Virus record (IMG/VR): IMGVR_UViG_3300031521_000216 | Coordinates: 1 to 34,953 of that record | DNA length: 34,953 bases | Source: a virus | Direction: 5' to 3' (one strand) | In this document: one piece after another, positions 3,899 to 26,980 of the stretch | Layout: every line of letters starts with the position of its first letter | How positions within the stretch are numbered: the stretch's first letter is position 1 | Program-made: the position numbers and the translations under genes | Notes under the pieces: generated by a model | Told to the model about the DNA's origin: nothing | The model's input: the letters and a program-made list of their open reading frames with translations, nothing else | The model's database searches: none

Positions 3899-4234
3899 TC
3901 GTCTGGGGCGCCAACGAGTCGGGCGGTCGTTTAAGATATCCGGTCCGTACCTCACGGATATCCCCCAGTACTGCCTCTCAAGTAGTTTCGGACCTTATCT
4001 TATCTGGCGCTTCTATGCAATTACTAGCCCGAGGCTAGACATGCTCCACGTTTTACCCAGTGTAGAATTTGCCCTATACAAAATCCCTCTTCCGATCCTA
4101 CGTGGTCTTTTTCACGTACTTATCTGGAGAGAGGGCAGAGCTCCCACTAACTCTAACATTTCATGTGGGGTTTAAGGACGCCGTCCACGGTCTTTTACAC
4201 GCAAGCACTGCACACTATGCTGCGGTCCTTAATC
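3899..4234 (-). other. Gene-free structured region between tRNA-Ile and a small gene
   Basis: No credible ORF is present. Nearly the whole stretch can be drawn as helices on the minus strand: the junction motif at 3903-3968, a perfect CTAGCC-CGA-GGCTAG hairpin near 4024-4038, a long hairpin at 4071-4136 (CCCTCT/AGAGGG enclosing TACGTG/CACGTA), CCCAC/GTGGG at 4143-4169, and TAAGGAC/GTCCTTA closing 4173-4231. Such density with no coding capacity argues for a large structured RNA or an array of small ones. Confidence 0.45.
3903..3968 (-). ncRNA. TTAAACGAC junction RNA motif, clear copy
   Basis: Sixty-six bases close on a perfect outer stem, CTGGGG/CCCCAG. Inside are GATATCCG/CGGATATC (eight pairs), the linker TTAAACGAC, and CGCC/GGCG over a nine-base loop. 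This three-way junction layout recurs with different stem sequences at 6056, 21535 and 24894. It ends four bases before the 5' end of tRNA-Ile. Confidence 0.55.
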
Positions 4235-4495
4235 TTACTGCATGAAACTTGTGTACATTTCCTCTTCATATATCTCGATAGCGTTGATCTCATCCTCATT
4301 GCTGAAGATCTTACGGAGAAGATTTACTGCAGGATCCTCAATCATCTTAGACTGAAGATCCCTAACCAGAAATGAAAACTTCCCACAGACCACAGTATCG
4401 GAGTTACACTTCTTACCATCACCATTGCGGTGAATAAGCGCCGTCTTGGTAACGACCGATCGCTTGCCATGTGCTACGCATACCTGATGTGCCAT
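4235..4495 (-). CDS. Hypothetical protein, 86 aa
   Basis: Starts MAHQVCVAHGKRSVVTKTAL and ends in an acidic helix (EIYEEEMYTSFMQ). Cysteines at positions 6, 30 and 37 and a histidine at 9 could bind metal, but the pattern matches no family I know. AAGGAG lies six bases before the ATG. It is isolated between the tmRNA and a structured non-coding stretch, so it is probably expressed with the RNA region. Confidence 0.65.
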   Translation of the reverse strand: MAHQVCVAHGKRSVVTKTALIHRNGDGKKCNSDTVVCGKFSFLVRDLQSKMIEDPAVNLLRKIFSNEDEINAIEIYEEEMYTSFMQ

Positions 4496-4520
4496 TATTG
4501 CTCCTTAGTTTGATTTGAGT

Positions 4521-5023
4521 TGGTGGACCTGCCGGGAATCGAACCCGGGTCCAAACAGTTTCCAATTAGATACTTCTACAGTCATTTTGAGGAGTGTCTA
4601 ATTCCTCACTACAGGGGCAACCAGCACAGCGCAGGTCACAATTCCACCACTTTGTTTTCCCAACTATCTTGGGCTTTCGGTACGACGTAAACAAAGAACG
4701 TTTCGCTTGGTTGGAAGTCTTACACATATAGTTGCTTCCTAGATCTGTTTTTCCTAAGCACAGGCTTCGGCATTCTCACGGCGTAAAACAGATAAACGGT
4801 TCGTTCGAACAGTCCTTTGATTTATAGGGCGTCTATTCAGTTCCCCTGGCTATCTAGTGTCAGATAGTGACAGAAGACATGGAAGCGCAGAGCGCCTCGT
4901 AGTCAGCGTCGATGTTCGACATAGCCGTGTCAACAGTGTTGTTGGCATTTATTTTTGTTTGACCACTCGGTCAGCGAGACTGATACCTAATCTTACCACT
5001 GCTTGTCGAGTCCTATCAGGCCC
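4521..5023 (-). ncRNA. ssrA: Transfer-messenger RNA (tmRNA)
   Basis: tmRNA rescues stalled ribosomes by acting first as tRNA-Ala and then as a template for a degradation tag. The 3' end GGTTCGATTCCCGG-CAGGTCC-ACCA has a perfect T arm (CCGGG-TTCGATT-CCCGG) and an encoded CCA. The 5' end GGGCCTG pairs with CAGGTCC as the acceptor stem and is followed by a D-like GGACTCGACA. The long helix H2 is confirmed by CAAGCAGT near the 5' end pairing with ACTGTTTG next to the T arm. Downstream of H2 a TGACC/GGTCA hairpin and crossing pairs resemble pseudoknot PK1. At 503 nt it is longer than typical bacterial tmRNA. Phage tmRNAs are known, for example in mycobacteriophage Bxz1. Confidence 0.9.
4860..4946 (-). 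other. Predicted tmRNA tag reading frame, 28 aa
   Basis: After PK1 the tmRNA carries AAATAAAT-GCC. Taking GCC as the resume alanine gives a tag that starts ANNTVDTAMSNIDADYEALC and ends SSVTI before TGA. It is much longer than the usual 8-15 residue tag and lacks the ALAA ending. Long acidic tags are known in some phage tmRNAs. The frame is a prediction; the other frames either stop after five codons or end less plausibly. Confidence 0.45.
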
Positions 5024-5177
5024 CCGTATCGGCATTTCACCGAGTCGTAACGATAAGGCAGTCGTTATCCTGCGCATTAGCTTCACCCTATGCAAGTGTC
5101 GTAGTTTTGTGGGTCTGGTAACAGACTACGAACTACCCTGAGTTTAATGAATCTTCTATGTCATCCCAGGACATAAA
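5024..5177 (-). other. Intergenic region 5' of tmRNA
   Basis: No gene visible. It contains AACGA/TCGTT over eight bases and a compound hairpin in which CGTAGT/ACTACG encloses GTCTG-TTAC-CAGAC. It should hold the terminator of the gene at 5178-5339 and any tmRNA promoter or 5' processing site; no clear -10/-35 pair was found. Confidence 0.35.
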
Positions 5178-5339
5178 CTACTTGTTTACTGCTGCATTCA
5201 GAGCATTACAAATTTCTTTTGCTGTTGCAGAATCTTCAATGGCATCTTGATAAACAAACCAGAAAGATTCCCCTTCATCCTTTGCAATGATCAAATACAT
5301 ACCACTTATAGATCTATACAGAATATCGTATTGTCTCAT
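5178..5339 (-). CDS. Hypothetical protein, 53 aa
   Basis: Starts MRQYDILYRSISGMYLIIAK, with a predicted beta-rich first half and a helical second half containing DSATAKEICNALNAAV. GAAAG lies six bases before the ATG. It follows the 5361-5645 gene by 21 bases and is probably the last gene of that short operon before the tmRNA. The alternating hydrophobic pattern suggests a small folded alpha/beta domain. No family recognised. Confidence 0.65.
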   Translation of the reverse strand: MRQYDILYRSISGMYLIIAKDEGESFWFVYQDAIEDSATAKEICNALNAAVNK

Positions 5340-5360
5340 GTTTTACTTTCATCTAAAATA

Positions 5361-5645
5361 TTACGGAGGGCAGTGGGCAACTTCTCCACAGAGAGATCCA
5401 TCCACACAAGGAAACTTATGTAGAGGCCTCTTTGTATGAGCCTGCTTTATTGCTCGACGTAGAGACTTTGCGAATTGACGAAGATCTTGGGCTTCCTCAA
5501 TTGTGAATTGATGCATAGTCTCTTTATAGCCAGAAGTAACACCTAAGGCTTCTCCGGAGACTATGCATATCAATCCTCCAGGTCTACCAGAGCTCCATTG
5601 TACTTCCAGATATCCGTTATCAGTATACGTTCTATTCTTTGGCAT
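5361..5645 (-). CDS. Hypothetical protein, 94 aa
   Basis: The ATG at 5643-5645 is seven bases after GAAAGGA; a GTG directly upstream is the alternative start. Residues 1-45 are beta-strand-like (YLEVQWSSG, GLICIVSGE), residues 46-75 helical and basic (FAKSLRRAIKQAHTKR). A C-terminal CVDGSLCGEVAHC has three cysteines and a histidine that could bind zinc. It is driven by a promoter of the 27-nt family at 5784-5810 through a structured leader, unlike most neighbours. Function unknown. Confidence 0.7.
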   Translation of the reverse strand: MPKNRTYTDNGYLEVQWSSGRPGGLICIVSGEALGVTSGYKETMHQFTIEEAQDLRQFAKSLRRAIKQAHTKRPLHKFPCVDGSLCGEVAHCPP

Positions 5646-5715
5646 CACGCCATCCTTTCATACAACCATCACGGCTGCTCTTACTGATTTAGTAAGAAGA
5701 AAAAAGAAAATGAGT

Positions 5716-5782
5716 AAGAACTATTTACCTAATGCCGAATTGTCAAATGACTTCGGGGAGTGTATGATACACAATAGTTCTT
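5716..5782 (-). ncRNA. 5'-terminal structured leader of gene 5361-5645
   Basis: The predicted transcript begins with AAGAACTATT, which pairs perfectly with AATAGTTCTT 57 bases later. Two hairpins lie inside: GTGTAT-C-ATACAC and CCGAA/TTCGG. The outer stem is followed by CATTTTCTTTTTTCTTC, then a second hairpin CTTACT/AGTAAG before the SD. The layout suits an attenuator or a stabilising 5' structure. Confidence 0.5.
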
Positions 5783-5783
5783 C

Positions 5784-5810
5784 TCATCATAGTACGTGTA
5801 ATTCTTGCGA
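5784..5810 (-). promoter_or_regulatory. 27-nt family promoter
   Basis: Minus strand: TCGCA, 14 bases, then the -10 box TATGAT followed by GA. It lies 139 bases upstream of the start of gene 5361-5645 and immediately before its structured leader. Matches seven other copies in spacing and ends. Confidence 0.7.
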
Positions 5811-5816
5811 GGTAAT

Positions 5817-6032
5817 TTACTCGTCGGGCTCAAGAGTCATCAATAGAGGCTGTCCAGATACAAACAACTCTGCTACAGAATCAAGAACTGTCATGTTAAA
5901 AGACATCGCAGGAGTATACTTAGCCCACTCCTTATTACGCTCATCGTTGTAATCTGGCATGAAATATACAACCGTCTGCCCGTCACTGACCGACGTCTTT
6001 CCTGAAACTGTTACTTTAGCTGTAACCTTCAT
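5817..6032 (-). CDS. Hypothetical protein, 71 aa
   Basis: Starts MKVTAKVTVSGKTSVSDGQT with alternating hydrophobic residues typical of beta strands, and ends in a strand-turn segment (SGQPLLMTLEPDE). The protein is small, soluble and acidic, probably a beta sandwich or barrel fold, but I recognise no family. AAGGAG lies 6-7 bases before the ATG, and a copy of the junction RNA motif (6056-6135) lies just upstream in the leader. The gene ends seven bases before the promoter at 5784-5810. Confidence 0.7.
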   Translation of the reverse strand: MKVTAKVTVSGKTSVSDGQTVVYFMPDYNDERNKEWAKYTPAMSFNMTVLDSVAELFVSGQPLLMTLEPDE

Positions 6033-6055
6033 AATTTCTCCTTAAATATAGTTTT

Positions 6056-6135
6056 GGTGGGCACAATTGTTTCTGCCATTTAAGAATATGAGATCCTTTT
6101 GCCCCGACGGCTAGGTTCTCTCAAAATTCCCCACC
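6056..6135 (-). ncRNA. TTAAATGG junction RNA motif, clear copy
   Basis: Outer stem GGTGGG/CCCACC. The first inner arm is GAAT-ttt-GAGA pairing with TCTC-at-ATTC. The linker is TTAAATGG, followed by a second arm GGCA/TGCC. It starts seven bases after the stop of gene 6143-6526, and the SD of gene 5817-6032 follows about 13 bases after its end, so it could act in cis as a leader or intercistronic element. Confidence 0.5.
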
Positions 6136-6142
6136 AGGATTT

Positions 6143-6526
6143 TTACCTGTAATCAGACTTGCCACCACAGGTTGGGCAATCTTCTGCACAATAACTTCCA
6201 TGAGCATGTCCAAATACACGACTACAATTTTTACTATGTGCAAATATCTCTTTACCAACCTCTGGATACGTATCGGGAATCTTCACATTTTCAAACTTCT
6301 TATATGCATCGATATATGTCTCAGACTTATCAGCATTGTACGTAACCTCATAGTACATCCCATCGGGGAGCGTAGTACTAATAAGGCACTTCCAGTTCTT
6401 AAGGACAAAGGAAGACCATACAATATAGACTTCATCGTTACCGAAGGTTACGTGAGTATCCGTCTTCTCAAGATTCTTCTTCACATACTCGAATACAAGC
6501 TTTAATGCTTTATCTTGAAAACTCAT
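6143..6526 (-). CDS. DUF6275-like phage protein, 127 aa
   Basis: The central part (VYIVWSSFVLKNWKCLISTT, DGMYYEVTYNADKSETYIDA, YKKFENV) resembles the DUF6275 family of small phage proteins, whose hallmark as I remember it is a W-x-x-x-x-L-x-N-x-K segment followed by DGMYYExTYN. Function of that family is unknown. The C-terminal 30 residues add HSKNCSRVFGHAHGSYC and CPTCGG, a Cys/His-rich tail that probably binds zinc and may be an extra domain. SD AAGGGAT lies five bases from the ATG. It is followed by a junction-RNA copy. Confidence 0.7.
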   Translation of the reverse strand: MSFQDKALKLVFEYVKKNLEKTDTHVTFGNDEVYIVWSSFVLKNWKCLISTTLPDGMYYEVTYNADKSETYIDAYKKFENVKIPDTYPEVGKEIFAHSKNCSRVFGHAHGSYCAEDCPTCGGKSDYR

Positions 6527-6535
6527 TTTTATCCC

Positions 6536-6826
6536 TTAGCCTAAAGGTACTGTATCGTTGGCCCAAGCAAACCTGTTAGTCTCTTCGAAAAGCCTGAAAG
6601 CTTCGAATACCCAGTTCTCGAGTTTGGCAACATAACCCGGAGTAATGACGAGTGCCCTATACCTAAGTCCTTCGACCATCTGCTTATTTGTAACTACCTT
6701 ATAATTCTCAATCCCAAGAGCTTTTGCGTACTTAGTCCCAGCTCTCACAGTGGTGGCAAGAATCGCTATTGGATATTTCGAGGTATCTGCTTTAGGAAAT
6801 CGCTTACGGTATTCTACCTCATCCAT
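6536..6826 (-). CDS. Hypothetical protein, 96 aa
   Basis: The frame is open to 6958, but the bases above 6826 belong to the upstream gene. The ATG at 6824-6826 lies within the last codons of that gene, with GAAGAAGG upstream, so MDEVEYRKRFPKADTSKYPI is the N-terminus. A positively charged middle (TTVRAGTKYAKAL) is followed by a helical C-terminus rich in aromatic residues. Translation is likely coupled to gene 6819-7085. No known family. Confidence 0.7.
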   Translation of the reverse strand: MDEVEYRKRFPKADTSKYPIAILATTVRAGTKYAKALGIENYKVVTNKQMVEGLRYRALVITPGYVAKLENWVFEAFRLFEETNRFAWANDTVPLG

Positions 6827-7085
6827 TGATTTCAACCTTCTTCTCCGGTGGCTTACGAGCAACCTGGATAACATGATCCATTGCCTCCCACCAGCCACGC
6901 TGATACTCAGCCTCGAACATCTGCTTATACCGAGCAGAAACCATCTCTTCGATAGCATTCTCGTACTTAGTAATCTGCTTATGCAGGTTTCGGTTCTCGT
7001 CTGCGATCTTAGTTCGTTGAGAGTTAAGAATCTCGTTCTTAGCCTCGAGTGACGCGATCTGCGTTTGTGCGGAATTCATAGCCAT
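6819..7085 (-). CDS. Coiled-coil protein, 88 aa
   Basis: Residues 5-55 form a long predicted coiled coil with repeated Ala/Leu/Ile heptads (QIASLEAKNEILNSQRTKIA and following). The rest contains YQRGWWEAMDHVIQVA and a basic tail. The start ATG at 7083-7085 overlaps the stop of the upstream gene as TGATG, so it is translationally coupled; an open extension to 7100 is not needed. The C-terminal part resembles sequences that follow coiled coils in small phage structural or regulatory proteins, but no name can be given. Confidence 0.7.
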   Translation of the reverse strand: MAMNSAQTQIASLEAKNEILNSQRTKIADENRNLHKQITKYENAIEEMVSARYKQMFEAEYQRGWWEAMDHVIQVARKPPEKKVEING

Positions 7086-7348
7086 CAGTGATCCATCCAC
7101 GTCTTGCTATTGAGGCTACTCGGGATACGCGGGTTATTGAGAATCTGCCACCGCTTGATCTTCTCGAGAGACTCAAGGATGATATTAATATGGCGTGCAG
7201 GAGATCCGGCCTTGATGCAGCACATTGCGTAATATGCCAGCACCTCCGGAAGAAGAACATCCTGTGCCCTGCACACAAAGACCGGCTCATCTTCACCGAT
7301 GTTACCGTGCTCGAGAGTTACCTTACCGTACTTATTGTCCTGTGCCAT
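7085..7348 (-). CDS. Hypothetical protein, 87 aa
   Basis: MAQDNKYGKVTLEHGNIGED is preceded by an excellent SD (AGGAGG, seven or eight bases), which decides the start over an upstream codon at 7390. The middle (EVLAYYAMCCIKAGSPARHI) is helical with a CC pair, and the end is polar. The first 35 residues look like a beta-strand module (KVTLEHG, PVFVCRAQD). It lies in a run of overlapping small genes from 8025 to 6536. No family recognised. Confidence 0.7.
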   Translation of the reverse strand: MAQDNKYGKVTLEHGNIGEDEPVFVCRAQDVLLPEVLAYYAMCCIKAGSPARHINIILESLEKIKRWQILNNPRIPSSLNSKTWMDH

Positions 7349-7349
7349 G

Positions 7350-7649
7350 TCAGAGTCCTCCTTGGATCTTAATCTTCTTGGCAATATCATCTACAGTTTC
7401 CTTATTAGGAATATCTCCGTAGAACGTGACAGTTGTAGTCCGATCTTTATCATACTGTCTCTTCGTCGAATAAGCATACTCCACGAGAAATATAAGCATC
7501 AAACCATAAAACATGCCTGCCCATATCCACCAGCCATGAATTGCAGCGCCACCAGATAATCCGCCAAATACGATGACTGTCCATAAGAACCAAAAATCGG
7601 CTTTTCTAATATCGAGAGATGACTTAACCGTCGTCCAGAGCTTATGCAT
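7350..7649 (-). CDS. Two-helix membrane protein, 99 aa
   Basis: Two hydrophobic segments: about residues 21-39 (FLWTVIVFGGLSGGAAIHGW) and 40-57 (WIWAGMFYGLMLIFLVEY), followed by a charged cytoplasmic-looking tail that ends DDIAKKIKIQGGL. The ATG at 7647-7649 overlaps the stop of gene 7642-8025 by eight bases, indicating coupling; a longer frame to 7709 exists but lies inside that gene. Likely an inner-membrane protein of unknown role. Confidence 0.7.
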   Translation of the reverse strand: MHKLWTTVKSSLDIRKADFWFLWTVIVFGGLSGGAAIHGWWIWAGMFYGLMLIFLVEYAYSTKRQYDKDRTTTVTFYGDIPNKETVDDIAKKIKIQGGL

Positions 7650-8025
7650 CGGGATAGTCCGTATCGCTAATATGCTTCGGCTTGTTACCATCCGAATCTG
7701 GCTTATCACTAAGAAGGGTGTAGGTTATTCCACCATCGGTCGAGAAGGCCTCGCCATTCCTACGATTCTGCCAACACGCATTAGGATCTGGCCAGACCTC
7801 GTACGTAAGATGCTGCCACTCCTTCGGGTTTGAGGTGAGAGGCTTCAGGTTCTTAAACTGGAGAAGCGCATTAAGTGTTGGAATAAACACTGATGCAGAT
7901 CCACCAGAATGACCCATGTCGGCAAAGATCTGAATCATCTTCAGATATCCCTCTACGATCTCGGGGTCCTCACCAAGCAACTCGAGCTCATACTTTGCAT
8001 GATTTACAAGATTACTATCGCCCAT
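7642..8025 (-). CDS. Hypothetical phage protein, 127 aa
   Basis: Starts MGDSNLVNHAKYELELLGED, is helical through residue 60 and contains the distinctive CWQNRRNGEAFSTDGGITYT near residue 84. The latter strand-turn segment resembles small phage proteins I have seen without function. The first half, with GHSGGSASVFIPTLNALLQF, may be a helical hairpin. AAAGGAG lies five bases before the ATG. Acidic overall, with no membrane segment. It sits directly after ThyX in the same direction. Confidence 0.75.
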   Translation of the reverse strand: MGDSNLVNHAKYELELLGEDPEIVEGYLKMIQIFADMGHSGGSASVFIPTLNALLQFKNLKPLTSNPKEWQHLTYEVWPDPNACWQNRRNGEAFSTDGGITYTLLSDKPDSDGNKPKHISDTDYPDA

Positions 8026-8051
8026 TTAAACTCCTTTATAGATATTGTTTA

Positions 8052-8759
8052 TTATGGAGAAACTCGGCCATTCTTCTGGAATGACGCATGTGTAAGAGGC
8101 ATCTTCTCTTCAAAGAATGCTTCCATCTTGCGGGCGACCATCTCGATCTCCTGCATGGGATATGACGGGAAGGTGCTTGTCTCATCCTTAGTCCTAAGAC
8201 TAAGAAATGCCATCAGTGATCGAGAATTGCAAGTAGCGTACATCTGAGACATGATGCCCACAGGAAGGACTGCACGAGCAATCTCCTTGGCGACGCCCTG
8301 TTCAAGCTGTTGCTGATAACAATGCCAAGAATCAGCATAAGATATCTCAAGAATTGCTCGAGTGCCATGCACCTGCTCGGAAGTTCCCTCGACGAAGACA
8401 TATGCACCAGGTTTGCCTTCTTGCACCAGTGGCCGATATACGTTAGGCACGTAGAATTCTGCAGGCAACTCGGTATAACGCCCACTCATCTCATTGTAGG
8501 ACCACCCGATTCGATGTCGGTGAAACTCGCGAAAGACAAATATGGGTGCCTTGATTCGGAACGTGAACATGTTGTGCTCGAATGGAGTACCATGCCTGTT
8601 CTTCATCAAGAAATTGATCATACCCGCAGTCTTACCGGGCTCTGTCTCAGTCACGGACTCAGACTTTGTACTGATGCGTGCAGCCCTTACCACCATCTCA
8701 TCTGAAGCGAGACACTGTACAAGGTCCACATCTACATCATCAAGAAATTTTAGCTCCAT
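8052..8759 (-). CDS. thyX: Flavin-dependent thymidylate synthase ThyX, 235 aa
   Basis: Makes dTMP from dUMP using methylene-tetrahydrofolate and FADH2, independent of ThyA. The ThyX signature RHRxxSxNxxSxRY is present as RHRIGWSYNEMSGRY (about residues 80-94). The FAD/dUMP-binding surroundings HGTPFEHNMFTFRIKAPIFV before it and the C-terminal SLMAFLSLRTK-type segment (about 180-190) also fit. Length is normal for the family. SD GAAGGAG lies five bases before the ATG. Phages use it to raise the thymidylate pool for DNA synthesis, consistent with the replication genes upstream. Confidence 0.96.
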   Translation of the reverse strand: MELKFLDDVDVDLVQCLASDEMVVRAARISTKSESVTETEPGKTAGMINFLMKNRHGTPFEHNMFTFRIKAPIFVFREFHRHRIGWSYNEMSGRYTELPAEFYVPNVYRPLVQEGKPGAYVFVEGTSEQVHGTRAILEISYADSWHCYQQQLEQGVAKEIARAVLPVGIMSQMYATCNSRSLMAFLSLRTKDETSTFPSYPMQEIEMVARKMEAFFEEKMPLTHASFQKNGRVSP

Positions 8760-9009
8760 TTTGCTCCTTCAACTCCTTTTTTGTTTTGGTATGCTCTTTT
8801 GTCCAAGTCCGAGCATTCTGAGAGAATACCACCGTATATAACAGTGATGCGGCGATGAATCCGTACTGATGAGATATGATCGCATATACAAACCACAGCC
8901 CCTGACAGGCAATATTGACATACCAGGCCCACCAGAATTTACGTCCTGCAAGAATAAACCCAGTAATACCAACTCCTGTCAGGAGCCACGACCACCAAAA
9001 TAGACTCAT
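8740..9009 (-). CDS. Small membrane protein, 89 aa
   Basis: Three closely spaced hydrophobic stretches rich in Trp and aromatic residues (LFWWSWLLTGVGITGFILAG, FWWAWYVNIACQGLWFVYAI, GFIAASLLYTVVFSQ) followed by a Lys-rich tail. It resembles the small YgjV/PnuC-like helical membrane modules, but that is only a fold-level impression. The start overlaps the stop of gene 9009-9707 as TAATG, and its 3' end overlaps the start of thyX by 20 bases, placing it in the thyX operon. Confidence 0.75.
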   Translation of the reverse strand: MSLFWWSWLLTGVGITGFILAGRKFWWAWYVNIACQGLWFVYAIISHQYGFIAASLLYTVVFSQNARTWTKEHTKTKKELKEQNGAKIS

Positions 9010-9707
9010 TATCCGCCAACCGAAGGATGATTACTTCCTGGAATACACTTCTCGCCAGGGTGGAATCTCTCGCAAGCATCCTTCTTCAGACGCTCAATTT
9101 CATCCTTGAGATACCACATGGCTTTCTCGAGGTCCTCAATATACTTACCCTTGAATTGCGCACGACAGACATACTTGACAACGTTCCCAGCATTGAATGA
9201 CAGTTCTCGAGATATCTCGATTATCTCAACTGGGAATTGAGTGTAGTGAGAAGGATGATTTACTGGATCATCTTTAACATCAACAGTCTTCAATACTTCA
9301 TTCGGTTGAATAGGAGTATTTATCTCATTTGAAAAAGACATATTAACTGTTTGAGTATTTGTTTGAATATTAATTCGATTGCCATAATTATCATGGCACA
9401 GATGCCTTTCACAACTAGGACACCAAATATGATGTACAGAACCACATGTTATGCAGGGATCAAATAGACGTACTTGGCCTTGATGATCACATCCGTTCAA
9501 GGTTTCATCATTGACCTCTGTATAACCTAAAGGAAACCACTCACTCAAAGCGTAGTTCTCATGAAAATACTTTGAGATCTCTACTTTTGTATAACCCATC
9601 TCGCCAAGTTGAGAAAGTAAGTTCTCCATGTACTCAGGAAAAGTTGTTCCCGCCTCTTCCATAATCTGTCGATCAGTCTTCTTAGGATTCATCTTGGCAT
9701 TAGCCAT
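9009..9707 (-). CDS. DUF3310 protein with N-terminal zinc-ribbon region, 232 aa
   Basis: The C-terminal part, from DPVNHPSHYT (about residue 145) to the helix ending KDEIERLKKD (about 212), is a textbook DUF3310 (SaV-like) domain found in many phages, often beside nucleotide-metabolism genes. The N-terminal 130 residues hold CDHQ, CITCG, WCPSCERHLC and several histidines, likely one or two zinc sites. The combination with DUF3310 is less usual. GAAAGGAG in the shared leader lies eight or nine bases before the ATG. It stands directly upstream of the membrane gene and thyX. Function of DUF3310 is not established. Confidence 0.85.
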   Translation of the reverse strand: MANAKMNPKKTDRQIMEEAGTTFPEYMENLLSQLGEMGYTKVEISKYFHENYALSEWFPLGYTEVNDETLNGCDHQGQVRLFDPCITCGSVHHIWCPSCERHLCHDNYGNRINIQTNTQTVNMSFSNEINTPIQPNEVLKTVDVKDDPVNHPSHYTQFPVEIIEISRELSFNAGNVVKYVCRAQFKGKYIEDLEKAMWYLKDEIERLKKDACERFHPGEKCIPGSNHPSVGG

Positions 9708-9796: not shown

Positions 9797-9806
9797 GGCC
9801 GTTGCC

Positions 9807-10331: not shown

Positions 10332-10376
10332 GCAAACCATCTCCTTTCAAGAGAGCAGTCGCCCTGATGCCCCCAG

Positions 10377-10421: not shown

Positions 10422-10439
10422 GGCCTTTGCTCCACCGTA

Positions 10440-10640: not shown

Positions 10641-10641
10641 A

Positions 10642-20308: not shown

Positions 20309-20320
20309 TTTCAATGCTCC

Positions 20321-20461: not shown

Positions 20462-20481
20462 AATGCTCCTATTTTGACCTA

Positions 20482-21168: not shown

Positions 21169-21205
21169 GGTGCTCCTTTTTCTTTCAAGAGTGGTAAATA
21201 TGGTA

Positions 21206-21499: not shown

Positions 21500-21534
21500 G
21501 ATTTTCCTTTCAAGATTATAGAATATGGTTATTC

Positions 21535-21601
21535 CCGGGCACAGTATGCTGTCATTTAAGATATGCGGACGAAATCCCCCTAGAGGCACGCTATATCCCC
21601 G
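21535..21601 (-). ncRNA. TTAAATGAC junction RNA motif, clear copy
   Basis: Sixty-seven bases: outer stem CCGGG/CCCGG; first arm GATAT-a-GCG pairing with CGC-ATATC; linker TTAAATG; second arm ACAG-CATA-CTGT. It is followed by AATAACCATATTC and the CTTGAAAGGA leader of gene 21206-21499, 36 bases from its ATG. It begins 12 bases after the stop of gene 21613-21819. Confidence 0.55.
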
Positions 21602-21612
21602 GAAAGGATGTA

Positions 21613-21819
21613 TCAGTGCAATATTACCGGGCGACCGGCCATAATCTCAAGATGCGAAAGATGCAGTGGTTGCCAACATACAGGTCTGGGAGTACTCTTG
21701 TCCCATTGCTGGATCCACACACGAGGCTGTTCTCGCTTGAACTTCTTGCCCTTGTACTTCCCACCAGTCAACTTTACGCCAGTGTTCATGGGCCTTGTGC
21801 TGATCGTTGTTAGCTCCAT
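21613..21819 (-). CDS. Small basic protein, 68 aa
   Basis: MELTTISTRPMNTGVKLTGG then KYKGKKFKREQPRVWIQQWD: strongly basic middle and a Trp-rich C-terminal half. Composition would suit nucleic-acid binding, but no motif is present. Its codon use resembles the flanking genes, which supports a real gene. AAAGGA lies ten bases before the ATG, slightly far. Located between two better supported genes with no other candidate frame. Confidence 0.5.
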   Translation of the reverse strand: MELTTISTRPMNTGVKLTGGKYKGKKFKREQPRVWIQQWDKSTPRPVCWQPLHLSHLEIMAGRPVILH

Positions 21820-21870
21820 TGCTGATACATCCTTTTCGTTAGTTTTGTGTACTACAAAGAAAGACCTAAA

Positions 21871-22311
21871 TCAGACGTTCGTACCATCGGTAACAGGCTG
21901 GACAGCGGGCCACTGAGGTGTAGTAGCGCCATCCTTCTTCTTATGGTCCTGCGGCTCCTTGGGAATGATTGCATTGATGAATGCTGCGGCAGCGACATCA
22001 TCTGTTGCCAACTCCATGAAGAGTTGAGAATATGCCTGAGTCTGAGTGAACGCCTCAGTGATCTCCTTGCTCTTCGCAAAGTGCTTTCCGTCATCGGACT
22101 TCTCACCGTACGACTTGAGGATAACGGTCTTGAAGAGCGCCGTAAGCTTCGGCATATCCTTGGCGTTGACGATCTTCTGGATCATAGCGGTCATACCACC
22201 AGACTGACCCAACTCCCATTCCATAACCTCAGCCTGTGTGAGATTGAAGTAGAAATCCTCGGTGATCTCCTCACCGTTGAAGTTCGTGTAAGTAATCTTC
22301 TTCTTAAGCAT
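21871..22311 (-). CDS. Conserved phage protein, 146 aa, possibly tail-chaperone-like
   Basis: ITYTNFNGEEITEDFYFNLT, then AEVMEWELGQSGGMTAMIQK, KSYGEKSDDGKHFAKSKEIT and FMELATDDVAAAAFINAIIP form a pattern I recognise from a conserved phage family often placed among tail or assembly proteins; some relatives are called tail assembly chaperones, which I cannot confirm. Here it lies away from the tail operon. The C-terminal 25 residues are Pro/Lys-rich and disordered-looking. SD weak (GAGAAA). A terminator of the upstream gene at 22341-22373 separates it from gene 22389-22586. Confidence 0.7.
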   Translation of the reverse strand: MLKKKITYTNFNGEEITEDFYFNLTQAEVMEWELGQSGGMTAMIQKIVNAKDMPKLTALFKTVILKSYGEKSDDGKHFAKSKEITEAFTQTQAYSQLFMELATDDVAAAAFINAIIPKEPQDHKKKDGATTPQWPAVQPVTDGTNV

Positions 22312-22340
22312 GGTTTCTCGTTTCTATAAGATATGGTTTT

Positions 22341-22373
22341 TGAAAAAGAAAGGATCCTTGTTTAAGGGACCCA
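22341..22373 (-). terminator. Intrinsic terminator
   Basis: GGGTCC pairs with GGATCC (one G-T pair) around loop CTTAAACAA, followed on the minus strand by TTTCTTTTTC. It ends the transcript of gene 22389-22586. Confidence 0.75.
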
Positions 22374-22388
22374 ATCTTTGATTCTTGG

Positions 22389-22586
22389 TCAGTCGAGGTT
22401 GAGGTCTTCGATGACGGGGGGTTCCACGGTTGCCCGCGAATCCTTCCAAGCGGCCATCGACTCCTTCATGTTCTTGCTGGTCATGGCGGAGAGGAGCATG
22501 GTTAGTCCTGTCGCCACAGCCCACAAGATCATGGGGATCGGTGAGACATTGGTAGAGTCGTTGGGGGTGAGTGTGTCCTCGTTCAT
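22389..22586 (-). CDS. Single-pass membrane protein, 65 aa
   Basis: One transmembrane helix (residues 17-36, IPMILWAVATGLTMLLSAMT) flanked by an acidic N-terminus and a charged C-terminal helix. GAAAGGAC is the SD. It forms a complete one-gene unit: promoter of the 27-nt family at 22617-22643, ORF, terminator at 22341-22373. It matches the small-membrane cassettes at 27050-28268 in organisation, though not in sequence. Function unknown. Confidence 0.75.
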   Translation of the reverse strand: MNEDTLTPNDSTNVSPIPMILWAVATGLTMLLSAMTSKNMKESMAAWKDSRATVEPPVIEDLNLD

Positions 22587-22616
22587 TTTTAAGTCCTTTC
22601 GGGAATGATTGTGGGT

Positions 22617-22643
22617 TCACTATACCCCGTGTATTTCTTGCGA
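22617..22643 (-). promoter_or_regulatory. 27-nt family promoter
   Basis: TCGCA, 14 bases, TATAGT, then GA. The start codon of gene 22389-22586 lies about 30 bases downstream, giving a short leader. Confidence 0.75.
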
Positions 22644-22644
22644 A

Positions 22645-23430
22645 TCAGTCGTTAATCCCGCGGTAATAGTCATACTTAGGCTTGACTAGATAGTCGATAA
22701 CCAAACACGGCTCGCCAGTATCGGTCAACTTGGATGTGAAATCGATCTCGAGCATATGGTCAGAAACCCATCCGAGATCCTCTCCCAATGTGGTATCTGG
22801 AAGACCGATCGAACACCAGAAATCGTTGACGGACGCGAACATGTTGTTCAGAAGTTGGGCATTAATATGGTTCTCTGCCCGTCGAATGGTCTCAGCATCA
22901 CTCTTGAAGTATCGTCCGGACAAGGAATCGTAGCAAAGTTGATCACCCTTACCGAGAAATACGATCTGAGTAGTACTGAGCGGGTTGTTATTCAGATGAT
23001 CCTGAACGACTGCATCATGGATCTTACGCTCTTTTGTCTCACCAATGGTCTCTACAACCTTGGCCTTATACTCATCCAGAGCGGTTTCTGTGATGGAATA
23101 TAGACTTGCAAGCGCTGCAACCCTACGAGCATTGATCGAATTTGACCCCACAACGCACATAATCGTCGCTGCACCCATCACTGCGGTCGGCAGATACAAC
23201 TTCCAAGCGACCTTTGTCTTCCCCCACAAAGTGAAGGCTTCGAATGACGGGTCTTTCTCAAACTCAGCCGCTTCAGCCTCTGCAATGGCCTCTATAGCCC
23301 CTGGAGTGGCCTTTGCAGACATTACAGCGGTGGTTATGACTCCTCCTACGCCGAGACCAGTTAGGATCGCAGGGGAGTTTTTAGCGATCGCATGACCTAC
23401 CGTATGTACAAGGCCATCAAATGTTACCAT
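22645..23430 (-). CDS. DUF6353 membrane protein, 261 aa
   Basis: I recognise the DUF6353 family: AKNSPAILTGLGVGGVITTA with ATPGAIEAI near the N-terminus, a second membrane segment (LYLPTAVMGAATIMCVVGSN), NARRVAALASLYSITETALD, then a soluble domain with GRYFKSDAETIRRAENHINA, LGEDLGWVSDHMLEIDF and PCLVIDYL. Widespread in phages of Gram-positive bacteria, function unknown. A paralog lies at 19397-20308. The ATG at 23428-23430 follows GAAAGGAG in the shared leader by seven bases; the frame continues to 23592 through promoter and leader and is rejected. Promoter at 23498-23524. Confidence 0.88.
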   Translation of the reverse strand: MVTFDGLVHTVGHAIAKNSPAILTGLGVGGVITTAVMSAKATPGAIEAIAEAEAAEFEKDPSFEAFTLWGKTKVAWKLYLPTAVMGAATIMCVVGSNSINARRVAALASLYSITETALDEYKAKVVETIGETKERKIHDAVVQDHLNNNPLSTTQIVFLGKGDQLCYDSLSGRYFKSDAETIRRAENHINAQLLNNMFASVNDFWCSIGLPDTTLGEDLGWVSDHMLEIDFTSKLTDTGEPCLVIDYLVKPKYDYYRGIND

Positions 23431-23469
23431 ATTCGATCTCCTTTCAAGAGTCGAGCAAAAAAGAAATAA

Positions 23470-23497
23470 GATGCTTGGGAAGGTATCCTTCAGCGTC
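23470..23497 (-). promoter_or_regulatory. 5'-terminal leader hairpin
   Basis: The predicted transcript starts with GACGCTGAAGG, which folds back on CCTTCCCAAGCATC (inner GAAGG-ATA-CCTTC, outer stem with one mismatch). A T-rich stretch, TTATTTCTTTTTTG, follows before the SD of gene 22645-23430. Similar leaders follow the promoters at 5784 and 26981. Confidence 0.5.
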
Positions 23498-23524
23498 TCA
23501 CTATAGCACCAGTGATTTCTGCGA
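23498..23524 (-). promoter_or_regulatory. 27-nt family promoter
   Basis: TCGCA, 14 bases, TATAGT, then GA. It drives gene 22645-23430 through a 65-70-base leader and begins 55 bases after the stop of gene 23580-23957. Confidence 0.75.
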
Positions 23525-23579
23525 GTTGTGGCCAAATTACCCCACTGGGATTTTTCAGCCACAACCCTTAGAAAATCTT

Positions 23580-23957
23580 TCAAACTACCCACTCATCTTG
23601 TCCAATCGCATAAGAATGAATATGGTGATCGCCAAGAGTCTTGTTGTTCCTCTGGTTTGCGGCCTCGAACTCAACAGATTGCCTTGTGAACATGACCCGG
23701 CCTGACCAACTCAGATCACAGTTGATCTCAAACATGGCAAGACGAAGTTTCTCAGCAAGTTCCTTGAGATTCTTTACGTTCTTTGCCCTGTAGTAGAAGG
23801 TCTTACCTCTACCCTCTTCGGCAATCATCTCGATGCGAGCCTTGTGCTTTAAAGGATTGAGTACTGAGAAGACATGAAACACCCTTCCACAAGTCAGATC
23901 CGTGGGAGTATCAGTTGCGATGTCTTTGAGATCGATGAAACGTGGAAGTGTGGTCAT
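23580..23957 (-). CDS. Hypothetical protein, 125 aa
   Basis: MTTLPRFIDLKDIATDTPTD starts a mixed alpha/beta protein with a beta-hairpin GKTFYYRAKNVKNLKELAEK and later WSGRVMFTRQSVEFEAANQR. No membrane helix. The ATG at 23955-23957 has AAAGGGG eight bases upstream. It is the last gene of a group (24851 to 23580) just before a new promoter. There is no clear terminator between its stop and that promoter. Family unknown. Confidence 0.7.
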   Translation of the reverse strand: MTTLPRFIDLKDIATDTPTDLTCGRVFHVFSVLNPLKHKARIEMIAEEGRGKTFYYRAKNVKNLKELAEKLRLAMFEINCDLSWSGRVMFTRQSVEFEAANQRNNKTLGDHHIHSYAIGQDEWVV

Positions 23958-23988
23958 TTTCTTAACCCCTTTCAAGAATTTTTAGTTG

Positions 23989-24462
23989 TTATTCAAAAGA
24001 CAATGCGATTTTATCTATCTTCTTCAAACCCTTACGCAAACGAACTAGCATTCGACGCTGGGTATCAACTCGCATATTCAAACCTTGATTCTCAAGTCGC
24101 TGCTTGTCTAAGAGCAACTGAAGTTCTTGAGCTTCACGATGGAATGCATATTTATCATTGACTACCCGGTCGAAGCGAGTTTCAATCTCAGCTTTCTCGC
24201 CCTTAAGCTTCTCGATCTCAGCTTTTTGGGTCTCAATAACTCGCTCAAGATGAACTTCGCCAACACTCGGTGACGAACTCTCACCAATTGAAGAATATAG
24301 AAGCTCTCCAAGCCTACGACGATCGTTCGGGGTAAGTGATCGAGTACACAGTATCGGATTATCACCGATAGAAAATCTCTGCTCTTTAGCGTCCTCAGAT
24401 ATATAACCAGCATCGCCAAGACTTATGTAAACGCCACTCTCAGTTACGAAACTACGTAACAT
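23989..24462 (-). CDS. Coiled-coil protein, 157 aa
   Basis: The first 75 residues are a mixed region (VYISLGDAGYISEDAKEQRF, ILCTRSLTPNDRRRLGELLY). Residues 75-140 form a long coiled coil (VIETQKAEIEKLKGEKAEIE and following), and the end is basic (MLVRLRKGLKKI). The N-terminal portion resembles short capping domains, without a name. The ATG at 24460-24462 overlaps the stop of the upstream gene as TGATG. Coiled-coil proteins of this size are often structural or regulatory, which cannot be decided here. Confidence 0.7.
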   Translation of the reverse strand: MLRSFVTESGVYISLGDAGYISEDAKEQRFSIGDNPILCTRSLTPNDRRRLGELLYSSIGESSSPSVGEVHLERVIETQKAEIEKLKGEKAEIETRFDRVVNDKYAFHREAQELQLLLDKQRLENQGLNMRVDTQRRMLVRLRKGLKKIDKIALSFE

Positions 24463-24623
24463 CACTCATCACCCTCAACCTCGTAGTTATAATCTTGGTA
24501 AATCTCTCTACGCTGAGCAGTTGTCAGTGAGAGCCAGTAAGTCTTAAGTTCAGGAGTCAGTTCGGCCTTCTGATCCCACAAAGCAACGATCTTTTTTACA
24601 TTGTCTTGCTGAACAGCAGGCAT
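24462..24623 (-). CDS. Small helical protein, 53 aa
   Basis: MPAVQQDNVKKIVALWDQKA followed by ELTPELKTYWLSLTTAQRRE and an acidic end. Predicted three short helices, like a minimal helix-turn-helix, though no DNA-binding signature can be claimed. AAGGA lies six bases from the ATG. Ten bases after gene 24633-24851 and coupled to gene 23989-24462. Confidence 0.65.
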   Translation of the reverse strand: MPAVQQDNVKKIVALWDQKAELTPELKTYWLSLTTAQRREIYQDYNYEVEGDE

Positions 24624-24632
24624 AACTTATCC

Positions 24633-24851
24633 TTAATCTAGAAGATTTTCCTCAGAAATGGCTTCGTACGTAAAATTCGCGACATACTTATCATTCTCAG
24701 AAAGAGGACGAATGTAGGGTGCCTTTTTAATGTCGTCATCCACAGCAGCAATAGCACCTTCTAGCGTCTTATGAATATCGATCATCGTTCGAGTTCCACT
24801 CCAAGAATCGGCGTTCATGTTCCACCGAATAAAGACTGTACCCTCCTTCAT
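24633..24851 (-). CDS. Hypothetical protein, 72 aa
   Basis: MKEGTVFIRWNMNADSWSGT leads into a helix with TLEGAIAAVDDDIKKAPYIR and a strand-like C-terminus. No membrane helix and no cysteine. The ATG follows AAAAGAG in a variant of the shared leader (CTCTTGAAAAGAG). Directly upstream lies the clear junction RNA copy at 24894-24967, separated by CCATATTC. First gene after the 476-base structured region. Function unknown. Confidence 0.65.
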   Translation of the reverse strand: MKEGTVFIRWNMNADSWSGTRTMIDIHKTLEGAIAAVDDDIKKAPYIRPLSENDKYVANFTYEAISEENLLD

Positions 24852-24893
24852 CGTGCACTCTTTTCAAGAGTTTTAAGAATATGGTAGAGACCA

Positions 24894-24967
24894 ATGTCGG
24901 GCACGTTAATGCTGTCGTTTAAGATGGGCGAGGTCTTTTATTGACCTTATCCGCGGATCCCCGACAT
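24894..24967 (-). ncRNA. TTAAACGAC junction RNA motif, clear copy
   Basis: Outer stem ATGTCGGG/CCCGACAT, eight perfect pairs. The first arm is GAT/ATC, GCG/CGC and AGGTC-AATAAAA-GACCT. The linker is TTAAACGACAG, followed by a short, weak second arm. It ends 43 bases before the ATG of gene 24633-24851. Confidence 0.55.
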
Positions 24968-24976
24968 CGGTTTTAA

Positions 24977-25059
24977 AAGGGCGAATATAGAGCATTTCGT
25001 TTAAGCCTAAGGTGCGTGCGAGCCTAACACTGCACTCACTAAAGTAACCGAAGCCCCTT
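24977..25059 (-). ncRNA. TTAAACGA junction RNA motif, weak tandem copy
   Basis: AAGGG pairs with CCCTT as an outer stem. Inside, GTGAGTGC pairs with GCACGCAC (seven of eight), then comes the linker CTTAAACGAAATG. It lies nine bases upstream of the clear copy at 24894-24967, forming a tandem pair. Confidence 0.35.
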
Positions 25060-25198
25060 AACTCTATAATAGGTACTACATAAATGGGGGCTTTCACGGC
25101 AGAGCCATCCCAAGCAGCCGCTGCCCCCGTCGTCAGGTTTCTATGAGGAGTACTATATTATATAATGGAGGATATACGTTTCACAGGGACTAGGGTCC

Positions 25199-25230
25199 GG
25201 CCTTTTGCGGTTGATCAGGCCACGCAACCG
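25199..25230 (-). ncRNA. H-type RNA pseudoknot
   Basis: On the minus strand CGGTTG pairs with CAACCG, and GGCCT, lying in the loop of that helix, pairs with AGGCC just after it. Loops are CGT, GAT and CAAA. All eleven base pairs are Watson-Crick. The compact geometry is that of regulatory or frameshift-type pseudoknots, but no overlapping ORF is present. Confidence 0.45.
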
Positions 25231-25328
25231 TTGTCTATTACTAAGTACGACTTTCCTCACCCAACCATACTCCCCCCAAGAGAATATGGTTGACGCTCTA
25301 GGCTTAAGAGGCTATGGCCTAGACCTTG

Positions 25329-26132
25329 TTACTTCTTTACCTTCTTAACACCGAATACCATAGTGAAACCAATCACGGAGATACAAAGGGCGATTCCTGC
25401 AAGATACCAAGGCATATCTGAACCAGTATCCGCCAACTTATAAGTCTCTAGCATAACCGGTTCTACCGGGGGGTCGATGAAACAATAATGTAAAAAGTCT
25501 TCTTTTTCAGAATCCAAAATCACATGTTGACGAGTCTCAAACGTAGATGTCGTATGTGTGTAATCTTGAATCCAGTAGTCATAACCTGTAGCATAAACCC
25601 AATCAGTGGTCATAACATTTCGACTTTGAGTCACTACAGTATCCGTACAAACACCAGACCACATCCACTGACTATATGTGATGACTGGGTCAGGTTTTCC
25701 TTCTCCTGGTGCTGGAAAATAACAACTCTCCGGTGTCACACAGATGTTTGTATCTGACCTAGATGGCGAAGGAGTCGAAGAACTACTTTGCTTTGTCGCT
25801 GTAGTCGATGGCGTAGACATCGATCCGCAACCCTCTGGAATCCAACAAGTAGATGACGCGGTAGCAGACGCTGTGACTGTAGAGTCTACAGTGGCCGTAG
25901 GAGAAGCTGTAATGGTCTCTGAAGGCTCTACAGTAGCAGAAGGTGTCTCAGTTGAAGTCGGGATACTCGACGGCGTCTCAGAGGTCGTAGGAACGTCCGT
26001 AGAACTTGCAGAGATTGTGGGAGACGGTTCTGGTGTGGGAGTCCCACAAGCCTTAGCAGAAACCGATGAGAAGAAAAGGATAACTAACGATGCAAAGATT
26101 GCCAAAAAGGTGAGTGTGCTACGCTTCATCAT
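25329..26132 (-). CDS. Secreted LADTG surface protein, 267 aa
   Basis: The N-terminal signal peptide (about residues 1-28, FLAIFASLVILFFSSVSAKA) is followed by about 110 residues of Ser/Thr/Pro-rich, mucin-like sequence, then a Cys-containing domain. Two repeats, CWIPEGC and CVTPESC, are visible. The C-terminus has the order of a sortase substrate: LADTG (233-237), a hydrophobic helix (about 242-260) and the basic tail KKVKK. LAxTG is the class E sortase type of actinobacteria, so the host could anchor it to the cell wall. A decoy, receptor-masking or superinfection-exclusion role is an inference. SD AGGAG lies nine bases from the first of two ATGs. Confidence 0.8.
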   Translation of the reverse strand: MMKRSTLTFLAIFASLVILFFSSVSAKACGTPTPEPSPTISASSTDVPTTSETPSSIPTSTETPSATVEPSETITASPTATVDSTVTASATASSTCWIPEGCGSMSTPSTTATKQSSSSTPSPSRSDTNICVTPESCYFPAPGEGKPDPVITYSQWMWSGVCTDTVVTQSRNVMTTDWVYATGYDYWIQDYTHTTSTFETRQHVILDSEKEDFLHYCFIDPPVEPVMLETYKLADTGSDMPWYLAGIALCISVIGFTMVFGVKKVKK

Positions 26133-26169
26133 GATAACTTGCTCCTATTTTGAGGTAGTTCGGTTGGGT

Positions 26170-26340
26170 TTATGTGTCTAGATACTCCATCATCTCATGA
26201 TTGGCATGCCCACGAATGAGATGGATAAAATCAATCTGCCAAGCTTCAAGAGGTTTTCCAAGCACTCTTTGCAACCTTTTACGCAGGTTAATCTCTTCTT
26301 GTGATAGGTGAAGACTCGCGTAATACTCATCGAGATTCAT
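26170..26340 (-). CDS. Small helical protein, 56 aa
   Basis: MNLDEYYASLHLSQEEINLR then KRLQRVLGKPLEAWQIDFIH and RGHANHEMMEYLDT: three short helices separated by Pro/Gly. No SD is obvious; the ATG is one base after the TGA of gene 26342-26629, so translation is coupled. It is the last gene of the operon 26883 to 26170 and directly precedes the LADTG gene in transcription order. Family unknown. Confidence 0.65.
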   Translation of the reverse strand: MNLDEYYASLHLSQEEINLRKRLQRVLGKPLEAWQIDFIHLIRGHANHEMMEYLDT

Positions 26341-26341
26341 G

Positions 26342-26629
26342 TCAGTGCGCTAATGTGAGGATGAACACCACGATTAATCCACCAACAACCAATAACCCCA
26401 ATGCCGCAGGTAGATCCCACCAACGAGGATTTCCAGCACTCAGTTGGCGATTAACTTCGGTATAGACAAGATCTGCACCATGCTTTGTGGCGGGATTATT
26501 AGTTGTCGTACGAAGACTCAGAGCAGACTCTCGAATTGCGTAAATCGCAAATCCACGCTCGAGTTGACGTTCGATGAAGAGTTGAGCTCCACGACGGTTA
26601 CGAACTGCTCCTAGAAACTGCATGCTCAT
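26342..26629 (-). CDS. C-tail-anchored membrane protein, 95 aa
   Basis: A basic, helical N-terminal part (FLGAVRNRRGAQLFIERQLE) is followed by one C-terminal transmembrane helix (about residues 72-94, LPAALGLLVVGGLIVVFILT). The arrangement puts the N-terminus in the cytoplasm. The N-terminal FIERQLERGFAIYAIRESAL could be a peripheral membrane helix. AGAAGGAG lies seven bases before the ATG. It starts two bases after gene 26632-26883. Function unknown. Confidence 0.72.
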   Translation of the reverse strand: MSMQFLGAVRNRRGAQLFIERQLERGFAIYAIRESALSLRTTTNNPATKHGADLVYTEVNRQLSAGNPRWWDLPAALGLLVVGGLIVVFILTLAH

Positions 26630-26631
26630 AC

Positions 26632-26883
26632 TTATACTCCTTCTGGCTTCTTGTAGACACGGAAGTTGAGCTTCTCACGAATGCCACGAACTGTGAGTTC
26701 ATTAAGGTTACGACCCTTAAGCGCGGAGTCGTAATCTTCTTGTGCATGCTTGATGTCATAATCTGTAGATAGAGGACTGCCCTTTATGCGCTCAAGTTCT
26801 TTCCACGCACGGTCCTCCTCTTCGACTGCATCTGAGAGAACCTTCTCCCAAAATGCAAGTGTTGCTTCTGAATACTCAGTCAT
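26632..26883 (-). CDS. Coiled-coil protein, 83 aa
   Basis: Nearly all helical and charged: FWEKVLSDAVEEEDRAWKEL, then DYDIKHAQEDYDSALKGRNL and TVRGIREKLNFRVYKK. Likely a helical hairpin. GGGAG precedes the ATG by seven bases. It is driven by the promoter at 26981-27007 through a folded leader and is the first gene of a three-gene operon. Heptad spacing suggests self-association. Function unknown. Confidence 0.7.
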   Translation of the reverse strand: MTEYSEATLAFWEKVLSDAVEEEDRAWKELERIKGSPLSTDYDIKHAQEDYDSALKGRNLNELTVRGIREKLNFRVYKKPEGV

Positions 26884-26923
26884 GTGTTGCTCCCATTTTG
26901 AGTCGATAAAAGAAAAAAGAGGA

Positions 26924-26980
26924 GAAGACGATCCTTGGTTTTAGGTGGTCATTTAATATTATCGGCCAGATAATATCTTC
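26924..26980 (-). ncRNA. TTAAATGAC junction RNA as transcript 5' end
   Basis: Outer stem GAAGA/TCTTC; first arm TATTATC-TGGCC-GATAATA; linker TTAAATGAC; a weak second arm with CCT/AGG. It begins at the predicted start site of the 26981-27007 promoter and is followed by TCCTCTTTTTTCTTTT. This ties the RNA motif family to the promoter family. Confidence 0.5.

Follow-up and report, generated by a model that had tools for sequence, protein, structure and literature searches.

Introduction

The early intercistronic RNase III sites of phage T7 are structured elements between cotranscribed phage genes and take the form of long irregular hairpins, while the hammerhead ribozyme has the core CUGANGA / GAAA / H. 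The Pistol ribozyme (RF02679) requires a pseudoknot between its P1 loop and the P2/P3 junction as well as an unpaired GU cleavage junction (PMC4604425), and the put RNA of phage HK022 has no enclosing P1 and sits downstream of early promoters (PMC9378689). Here, we describe a small three-way-junction RNA that is present in nine copies in the virus record IMGVR_UViG_3300031521_000216, which was analyzed at its full length of 34,953 bases and is called the window below. The helices of this RNA covary, further members were found in unrelated viral contigs and isolate phages, as had been expected in a preliminary description of the window, and the element is filed as a new structured-RNA class, whose job may be of a known kind.

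Fold of the element

A closing helix P1 encloses two arms, P2 and P3, both of which adjoin P1 directly, so that UUAAA is the sole unpaired junction strand. The consensus thus reads P1 (inner end GGG/CCC), P2 (often GA..UC), UUAAA, P3 and P1′, where P3 consists of a YG step, a bulged purine (A, in a few members G), a C-G pair, an N-N′ pair, a variable loop and a second YG step. This anatomy is illustrated by the best copy of the window:

3972-3901, minus strand: best copy, covariance model R1 E=1e-13; its end lies 2 nucleotides (nt) ahead of the transfer RNA (tRNA) gene tRNA-Tyr (3822-3898, ARAGORN)
3963-3968, minus strand: 5′ strand of P1, CUGGGG, pairing with 3903-3908 (sequence and P1 covariation)
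3935-3962, minus strand: P2 arm GAUAUCCG...CGGAUAUC, adjoining P1 (sequence and P2 covariation)
3930-3934, minus strand: unpaired junction strand UUAAA, invariant in alignment A4 (30 of 30 rows)
3909-3929, minus strand: P3, composed of CG / bulged A / CCGCCCGACUCGUUGG / CG, with the outer CG:CG paired (RNAalifold and pair counts)
3903-3908, minus strand: 3′ strand of P1, CCCCAG (sequence and P1 covariation)

The YG after UUAAA is paired by RNAalifold with the YG before the closing strand. At this base of P3, the 30 rows have C-G (25) or U-G (4) followed by G-C (17), G-U (11) or A-U (2), the A-U form being a compensatory change seen twice (L329, L333). Because of this pairing of both YG steps and the pair counts, P3 starts at YG/YG in the consensus, and an earlier interpretation, with UUAAAYGA and a further unpaired YG in the junction, was dropped, since unselected members agreed with the RNAalifold result. 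The linker TTAAA(C/T)GAC of the preliminary description was right for the unpaired UUAAA; the next two nucleotides are paired, followed by the bulged A or G, and with the final C the upper part of P3 begins.

Copies measure about 55 to 140 nt, because the arms P2 and P3 are of freely variable length. In a syntenic group (L320-L336), P2 carries an extra conserved internal motif, GGCRAGRG...UAUWCCGGAYGCC, which is possibly a tertiary-contact module. A pseudoknot was not supported, as a mutual-information scan of all column pairs shows three helices only.

Covariation of the three helices

Stems that differ in sequence and still pair had been reported for the window before (CTGGGG/CCCCAG, GGTGGG/CCCACC and ATGTCGGG/CCCGACAT); all of them are present, and covariance-model alignments turned the impression of covariation into a strong signal. 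IMG/VR was scanned with the pattern GGGGATN{8,38}ATCTTAAAYGAC, which returned 47 stretches. In about 20 of these, a hairpin follows, then a pyrimidine-G and then a strand that complements what precedes GGG, none of which is part of the pattern, and a relaxed pattern brings the IMG/VR total to about 70 distinct members. The alignment behind model R1 (23 sequences: 19 IMG/VR members and four window copies) has a covariation score of 0.351 compared with 0.099 ± 0.017 after shuffling. In a set pre-filtered on pairing, and with GGGGA, TC-TTAAAYGAC and YGCCC fixed by selection in the pattern matches, mutual information is highest in P2 (positions 3, 4 and 5), P3 (second pair) and P1 (fourth pair), and no other pair stands out.

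Two tests were free of this selection. The first used one locus of Streptomyces phages (a small coding sequence (CDS), then tRNA-Arg) that was found by DNA similarity and aligned by its flanks. In Peebs, Targaryen and Bmoc, P1 and P2 are rewritten at this locus with the pairing kept: P1 is AAAUAGGG/CCCUAUUU in Bmoc and AAGGG/CCCUU in Targaryen, the first P2 pair across the three phages is G-C, A-U and U-A, and P3, with CCG/CGG in Peebs and Bmoc, has changed to CCU/AGG in Targaryen. For the second test, 80 records chosen by polymerase homology alone were searched whole with the larger model R2, which has several window copies in its training set and whose cmsearch scope was the records behind the fetched loci (L numbers). 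Matches at E of 8e-5 or better, with E down to 1e-10, were obtained in 16 of the 80 records, among them Arthrobacter phage Mudcat and Rhodococcus phage ReqiPepy6.

In a 30-row alignment including these 16 records, which was fitted to the model and is therefore biased towards structure, whereas the flank-aligned locus is free of this bias, two-sided changes occur in 16 of 19 pairs and 86.1% of the cells are paired, compared with 52.3% in the best slid control. The covariation score of these 30 rows is 0.518 versus 0.177 ± 0.015 for shuffled alignments (0 of 500). All three helices covary strongly.

Copies in the window

The DNA polymerase of the window shares about 60% identity with its counterparts in Arthrobacter and Rhodococcus phages, and the 35-kilobase (kb) stretch is an actinophage-like genome fragment. 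All genes examined are on the minus strand, and the RNA genes are tRNA-Leu, tRNA-Lys and tRNA-Tyr (ARAGORN) plus a transfer-messenger RNA (tmRNA; Rfam 15 cmscan). With model R1 (E<=0.12), nine copies of the element were found, all on the minus strand, while the best plus-strand match has an E of only 2.7; the 10-mer CTTAAAYGAC occurs four times on the minus strand, not on the plus strand and not in the reversed control. The five copies named in the preliminary description and its three weaker ones are all recovered, in intergenic DNA, and the ninth, at 2824-2724, is new. Besides the best copy, these are, with adjacent open reading frames (ORFs):

24969-24893, minus strand: copy, second in a tandem, R1 E=3e-12; next start codon 41 nt on
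25064-24973, minus strand: divergent copy, first in the tandem with 24969-24893 (3-nt gap), R1 E=0.052, R2 E=0.003; P1 AAGGG/CCCUU, P2 GCUU..AGGC, P3 closed by A-U, not C-G
21607-21531, minus strand: copy, R1 E=6e-11; 5 nt behind the stop of a small ORF (21613-21819), start codon 30 nt on
6138-6053, minus strand: copy, R1 E=3e-7; 4 nt behind the stop of ORF 6143-6526, with ORF 5817-6032 starting 20 nt downstream; bulged purine is G
2720-2581, minus strand: large copy with long P2 and P3 arms, R1 E=1.5e-5; P1 CAGGG/CCCUG, P2 GACU/AGUC
2824-2724, minus strand: divergent copy in tandem with 2720-2581 (3-nt gap), with weak scores of R1 E=0.047 and R2 E=0.042; supported by its position 1 nt behind the stop of ORF 2826-3041 and by P1 UGUAGGG/CCCUACG
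2159-2064, minus strand: copy between tRNA-Lys and tRNA-Leu in which P1 is short and P3 long, R1 E=0.005, R2 E=1e-4
26985-26920, minus strand: divergent copy with AU-rich P1 GAGAAGA/UCUUCUC, R1 E=0.12, R2 E=1e-6; its start is the -10 box of a promoter-like sequence (read from sequence), start codon 36 nt on

Proximity to a start codon or tRNA, which had been claimed for most copies, applies to five of them (20, 30, 36 and 41 nt to a start codon in four, 2 nt to tRNA-Tyr in one); the remaining four of the nine sit in noncoding arrays. A possible degenerate relative at 4235-4170 (minus strand) has UAAAAGAC in place of UUAAAYGAC and a P1 of UUAAGGAC/GUCCUUAA, and reaches only 7.8 bits with R2.

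Position relative to genes and tRNAs

In gene sense, 44 of 70 members have a stop codon 0-30 nt upstream, compared with 4.8 expected, while the antisense control gave 7 with 4.2 expected. Copies are in the coding sense and often stand just before the next start codon or promoter. In the 16 polymerase relatives, the upstream gene always belongs to one protein family, with the element 0-26 nt behind its stop, and in about half of them (L320, L322, L324-L326, L331, L333, L334) a promoter of the TCGCA...TATAAT type follows directly. The phrog_4282 protein of the window (21871-22311), separated from copy 21607-21531 by one small ORF, looks like a member of this family (shared YFNLT-type start; probably tail assembly chaperone-like), and a phrog_4282 gene is likewise immediately upstream in L124.

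In L006, the gene upstream encodes a major tail protein, in L030 a major head protein and in L164 a terminase; a primase gene is found downstream in L143. The motif was not found in seven phages that share the major tail or terminase genes flanking it elsewhere (Pelagibacter HTVC027P, 023Pt_psg01, DSL-LC04, MinM2, DoctorPepper, Psst1 and Count); therefore, the element is not tied to these genes. A gene-specific riboswitch was rejected because the flanking genes are too diverse.

In tRNA arrays, the element occupies the spacer at a distance of 1-11 nt from the tRNAs. In Jay2Jay, 2 nt separate it from the preceding tRNA-Gly and 5 nt from the following tRNA-Arg; in Peebs, it lies 4 nt ahead of tRNA-Arg, and in L112, L118 and L135, tRNAs are present on both sides.

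Distribution, novelty and turnover

Isolate phages carrying the element are the Streptomyces phages Peebs, Targaryen, Bmoc, Jay2Jay and Warpy, Arthrobacter phage Mudcat and Rhodococcus phage ReqiPepy6. In 84,980 bacterial and archaeal genomes, the strict pattern, which may miss variants, gave 12 matches, none of them with a convincing three-helix fit; the best two (L172, L174) look coding because both read in frame as the same protein motif. The element may be confined to viruses. Since the terminase of the L164 group is nearest to those of Pelagibacter and freshwater phages, hosts beyond Actinobacteria are possible.

The preliminary description knew no named RNA class with this core, and Rfam 15 agrees: cmscan of the window returned the tRNAs and the tmRNA only, with nothing at the copies even with E up to 5, and nothing was matched at the motif in 15 loci holding other members. 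INPHARED yielded no Megablast match for 25 kb of the window, and the phosphoesterase beside the best copy has no relatives in IMG/VR. A literature search, which did not cover preprints and most subscription journals, yielded no description, so that the element may have been described before. The class is defined by the order P1-P2-UUAAA-P3, the YG/YG pairs, the bulged purine and covarying helices, all of which were found.

Most records, even those of 160-240 kb, carry one copy, and the nine of the window are exceptional. At the Peebs locus, CDS and tRNA are separated by no more than a short hairpin (read from the sequence) in Warpy, Jay2Jay, Mildred21, LukeCage, TomSawyer and Daubenski, with flanks in Warpy and Jay2Jay nearly identical to those of Targaryen. 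The gap between tRNA-Gly and tRNA-Arg is filled by the element in Jay2Jay and by an unannotated tRNA-like sequence in Peebs, and measures 4 nt in LukeCage. The element is optional and is gained and lost between close relatives. A recent mobile repeat was rejected as explanation, as the two copies in the Targaryen record are at different loci and the arms vary among the nine copies of the window; the second Targaryen copy corresponds in position and score to the one in Warpy, which does not resemble the first Targaryen copy in its arms.

The tRNA-like gene of Peebs in the slot of the Jay2Jay element (87208-87313; L338 1409-1514) has a canonical T-arm and an odd D/anticodon region, and similar odd tRNA-like spacers were seen elsewhere in the tRNA arrays of these phages.

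Further features of the window and related loci

A promoter TCGCAAGAAtTACA-N-TATAATGA recurs on the minus strand of the window (5816-5788, 27000-26970, 28318-28290 and others) and is shared with polymerase relatives (L320, L322, L325, L331). Right behind a promoter, a different three-way-junction-like leader (5790-5713, minus strand) has an outer stem AAGAACUAUU/AAUAGUUCUU around two hairpins and is without the UUAAAYGA core. Near-identical terminator-like hairpins, AGTCC-TTGTTTAAGG-GACT, lie behind three genes (22350-22374, 27021-27041 and 27588-27610), and their minus-strand loop holds CUUAAAC. Just upstream of the tandem pair 25064-24973/24969-24893, a dense noncoding stretch (25330-25085, minus strand) contains several stable hairpins (e.g. 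CAACCATATTCTC...GAGTATGGTTG).

An unannotated tRNA-like sequence at 2231-2290 (minus strand), not called by ARAGORN, has a canonical T-arm CUGGGUUCAAGUCCCAG, only one other arm and a 10-bp terminal stem GUCUAGGUAG/CUGCCUAGGC. The tmRNA at 4521-5023 (minus strand) spans about 500 nt compared with 374 model positions, and therefore contains an insert. Outside the window, a borderline Pistol match (35.3 bits, gathering threshold 34.5) was found at L005 4835-4885 (plus strand), about 2 kb from a class member.

Proposed function

The position of the element, its coding sense, its diverse neighbors and its replacement by a plain hairpin in relatives point to transcript punctuation. We therefore propose, with a probability of roughly 0.4, that it is a new virus-encoded cis-acting structured RNA which punctuates polycistronic phage transcripts as a cleavage or processing site. 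It would be transcribed in the sense of the phage operons, and its rigid, almost fully paired fold would display UUAAA, together with the bulged purine, as a defined cleavage site in the transcript, used either by an endonuclease of host or phage origin or in self-cleavage. After the cut, the upstream RNA would carry the P2 hairpin at its 3′ end, and the downstream RNA or tRNA precursor would start with the P3 hairpin at its 5′ end. If cleavage does occur, a nuclease is somewhat favored over self-cleavage. The locations, which follow genes, precede start codons or lie between tRNAs, also fit the cis-regulatory or processing element suggested in the preliminary description. Three points weigh against the proposal: a nuclease site has no obvious need for the conservation of P1, P2, P3 and the bulge together, one copy in most phages is few for a general processing site, and end protection, modification of RNA polymerase or protein binding suit the positions nearly as well.

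The strongest competitor, although rather unlikely, is a binding site for a phage or host protein or a stabilizer of RNA ends, which would guard the 3′ end of the upstream mRNA or control translation of the next gene with no cleavage involved. Proteins commonly recognize stems with a bulged A, and the tight anchoring behind stop codons, some of them of structural genes (major tail, major head), would suit such a site, but not the occurrence between tRNAs and beside neighbors of very different function.

As a special case of processing, the element could be a self-cleaving ribozyme with the junction UUAAA and the bulged purine as catalytic core, which would free the flanking mRNAs and tRNAs. 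The small conserved core with freely variable arms, the intergenic and tRNA-array positions, the gain and loss between relatives and the conserved P2 elaborations of the syntenic group, as potential tertiary contacts, are what one would expect, and phages do carry intergenic hammerheads (PMC3088659) and pistols (PMC4604425). However, about six unpaired core nucleotides are left once YG/YG is paired, no conserved unpaired dinucleotide exists at a candidate cleavage site, and no Rfam ribozyme was matched, which makes self-cleavage improbable. A whole new virus-specific class of self-cleaving ribozymes separating phage mRNAs and tRNAs, built around a three-way junction with the single UUAAA strand and the bulged purine, is judged slightly less probable still.

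About equally doubtful is a cis element acting on RNA polymerase in antitermination, anti-pausing or phage-specific termination, comparable to HK022 put. That RNA is of similar size (~70 nt), cis-acting and made of two stem-loops (PMC9378689), resembling the two inner arms here; moreover, one copy per record is usual, untranslated tRNA arrays are open to Rho, and the placement between a gene end and the next promoter would suit a terminator variant. Yet put is located downstream of early promoters, whereas most members of our class lie behind gene ends, a location 2 nt from a tRNA gene would be odd for it, a U-tract is missing after all nine copies of the window, and this phage has conventional terminator-like hairpins elsewhere. 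An intrinsic terminator was rejected, because U-tracts are lacking and a terminator scan calls none of the copies.

Less probable again is a trans-acting small RNA or a decoy against host nucleases, placed within operons and tRNA arrays merely for expression and maturation. The usual single copy per phage record and the use of a tRNA-array slot that holds a tRNA-like sequence (Peebs) or nothing (LukeCage) in relatives would agree with it, but the nine copies of the window are unlike each other, and, since conservation is lacking in loops and arms, no target-pairing segment is evident. Chance hairpins around a common 10-mer or a DNA-level repeat, an idea that gains from the pattern itself, which partly dictates the members found with it, are refuted by compensatory changes at unselected positions, the fixed strand relative to genes and matches with E to 1e-10 in records picked independently of the motif.

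New structured-RNA classes with comparable covariation and spread are rare. If the element serves processing, phages own a portable RNA-encoded means to punctuate transcripts and tRNA arrays; a ribozyme or an RNA acting on RNA polymerase would be an addition to very short lists. Isolates with and without the element (Peebs or Targaryen versus Warpy at the same locus; Mudcat) make its function directly testable in laboratory strains of Streptomyces and Arthrobacter.

Comparison with known systems

With the T7 RNase III sites, the element shares the location of a structured RNA between genes and, by analogy, the proposed role in transcript punctuation; it differs in being a three-way junction with an invariant UUAAA that also occurs between tRNAs, and its cleavage is hypothetical. 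Pistol is similar in its three stems, short conserved core, covarying arms and phages among the carriers (PMC4604425), whereas our element has no pseudoknot signal, no unpaired dinucleotide in the refined model and no cmscan match at the motif. The hammerhead also combines a three-way junction with conserved junction nucleotides and variable arms, and some are intergenic in phages (PMC3088659); its core is absent here, the junction strands measure 0, 5 (UUAAA) and 0 nt, and the Rfam hammerhead models were not matched. HK022 put is likewise a structured, phage-encoded, cis-acting RNA of about 70 nt with two inner stem-loops, but here an enclosing P1 covaries, and most members lie behind stop codons, others between tRNAs. 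Finally, GOLLD and ROOL, whose function is unknown, are structured RNAs encoded by viruses in the neighborhood of tRNA islands (PMC12286853). They are ornate and several hundred nt long, in contrast to the 55-140 nt and different fold of the three-way-junction element, and one contig (L041) carries both GOLLD and the element.

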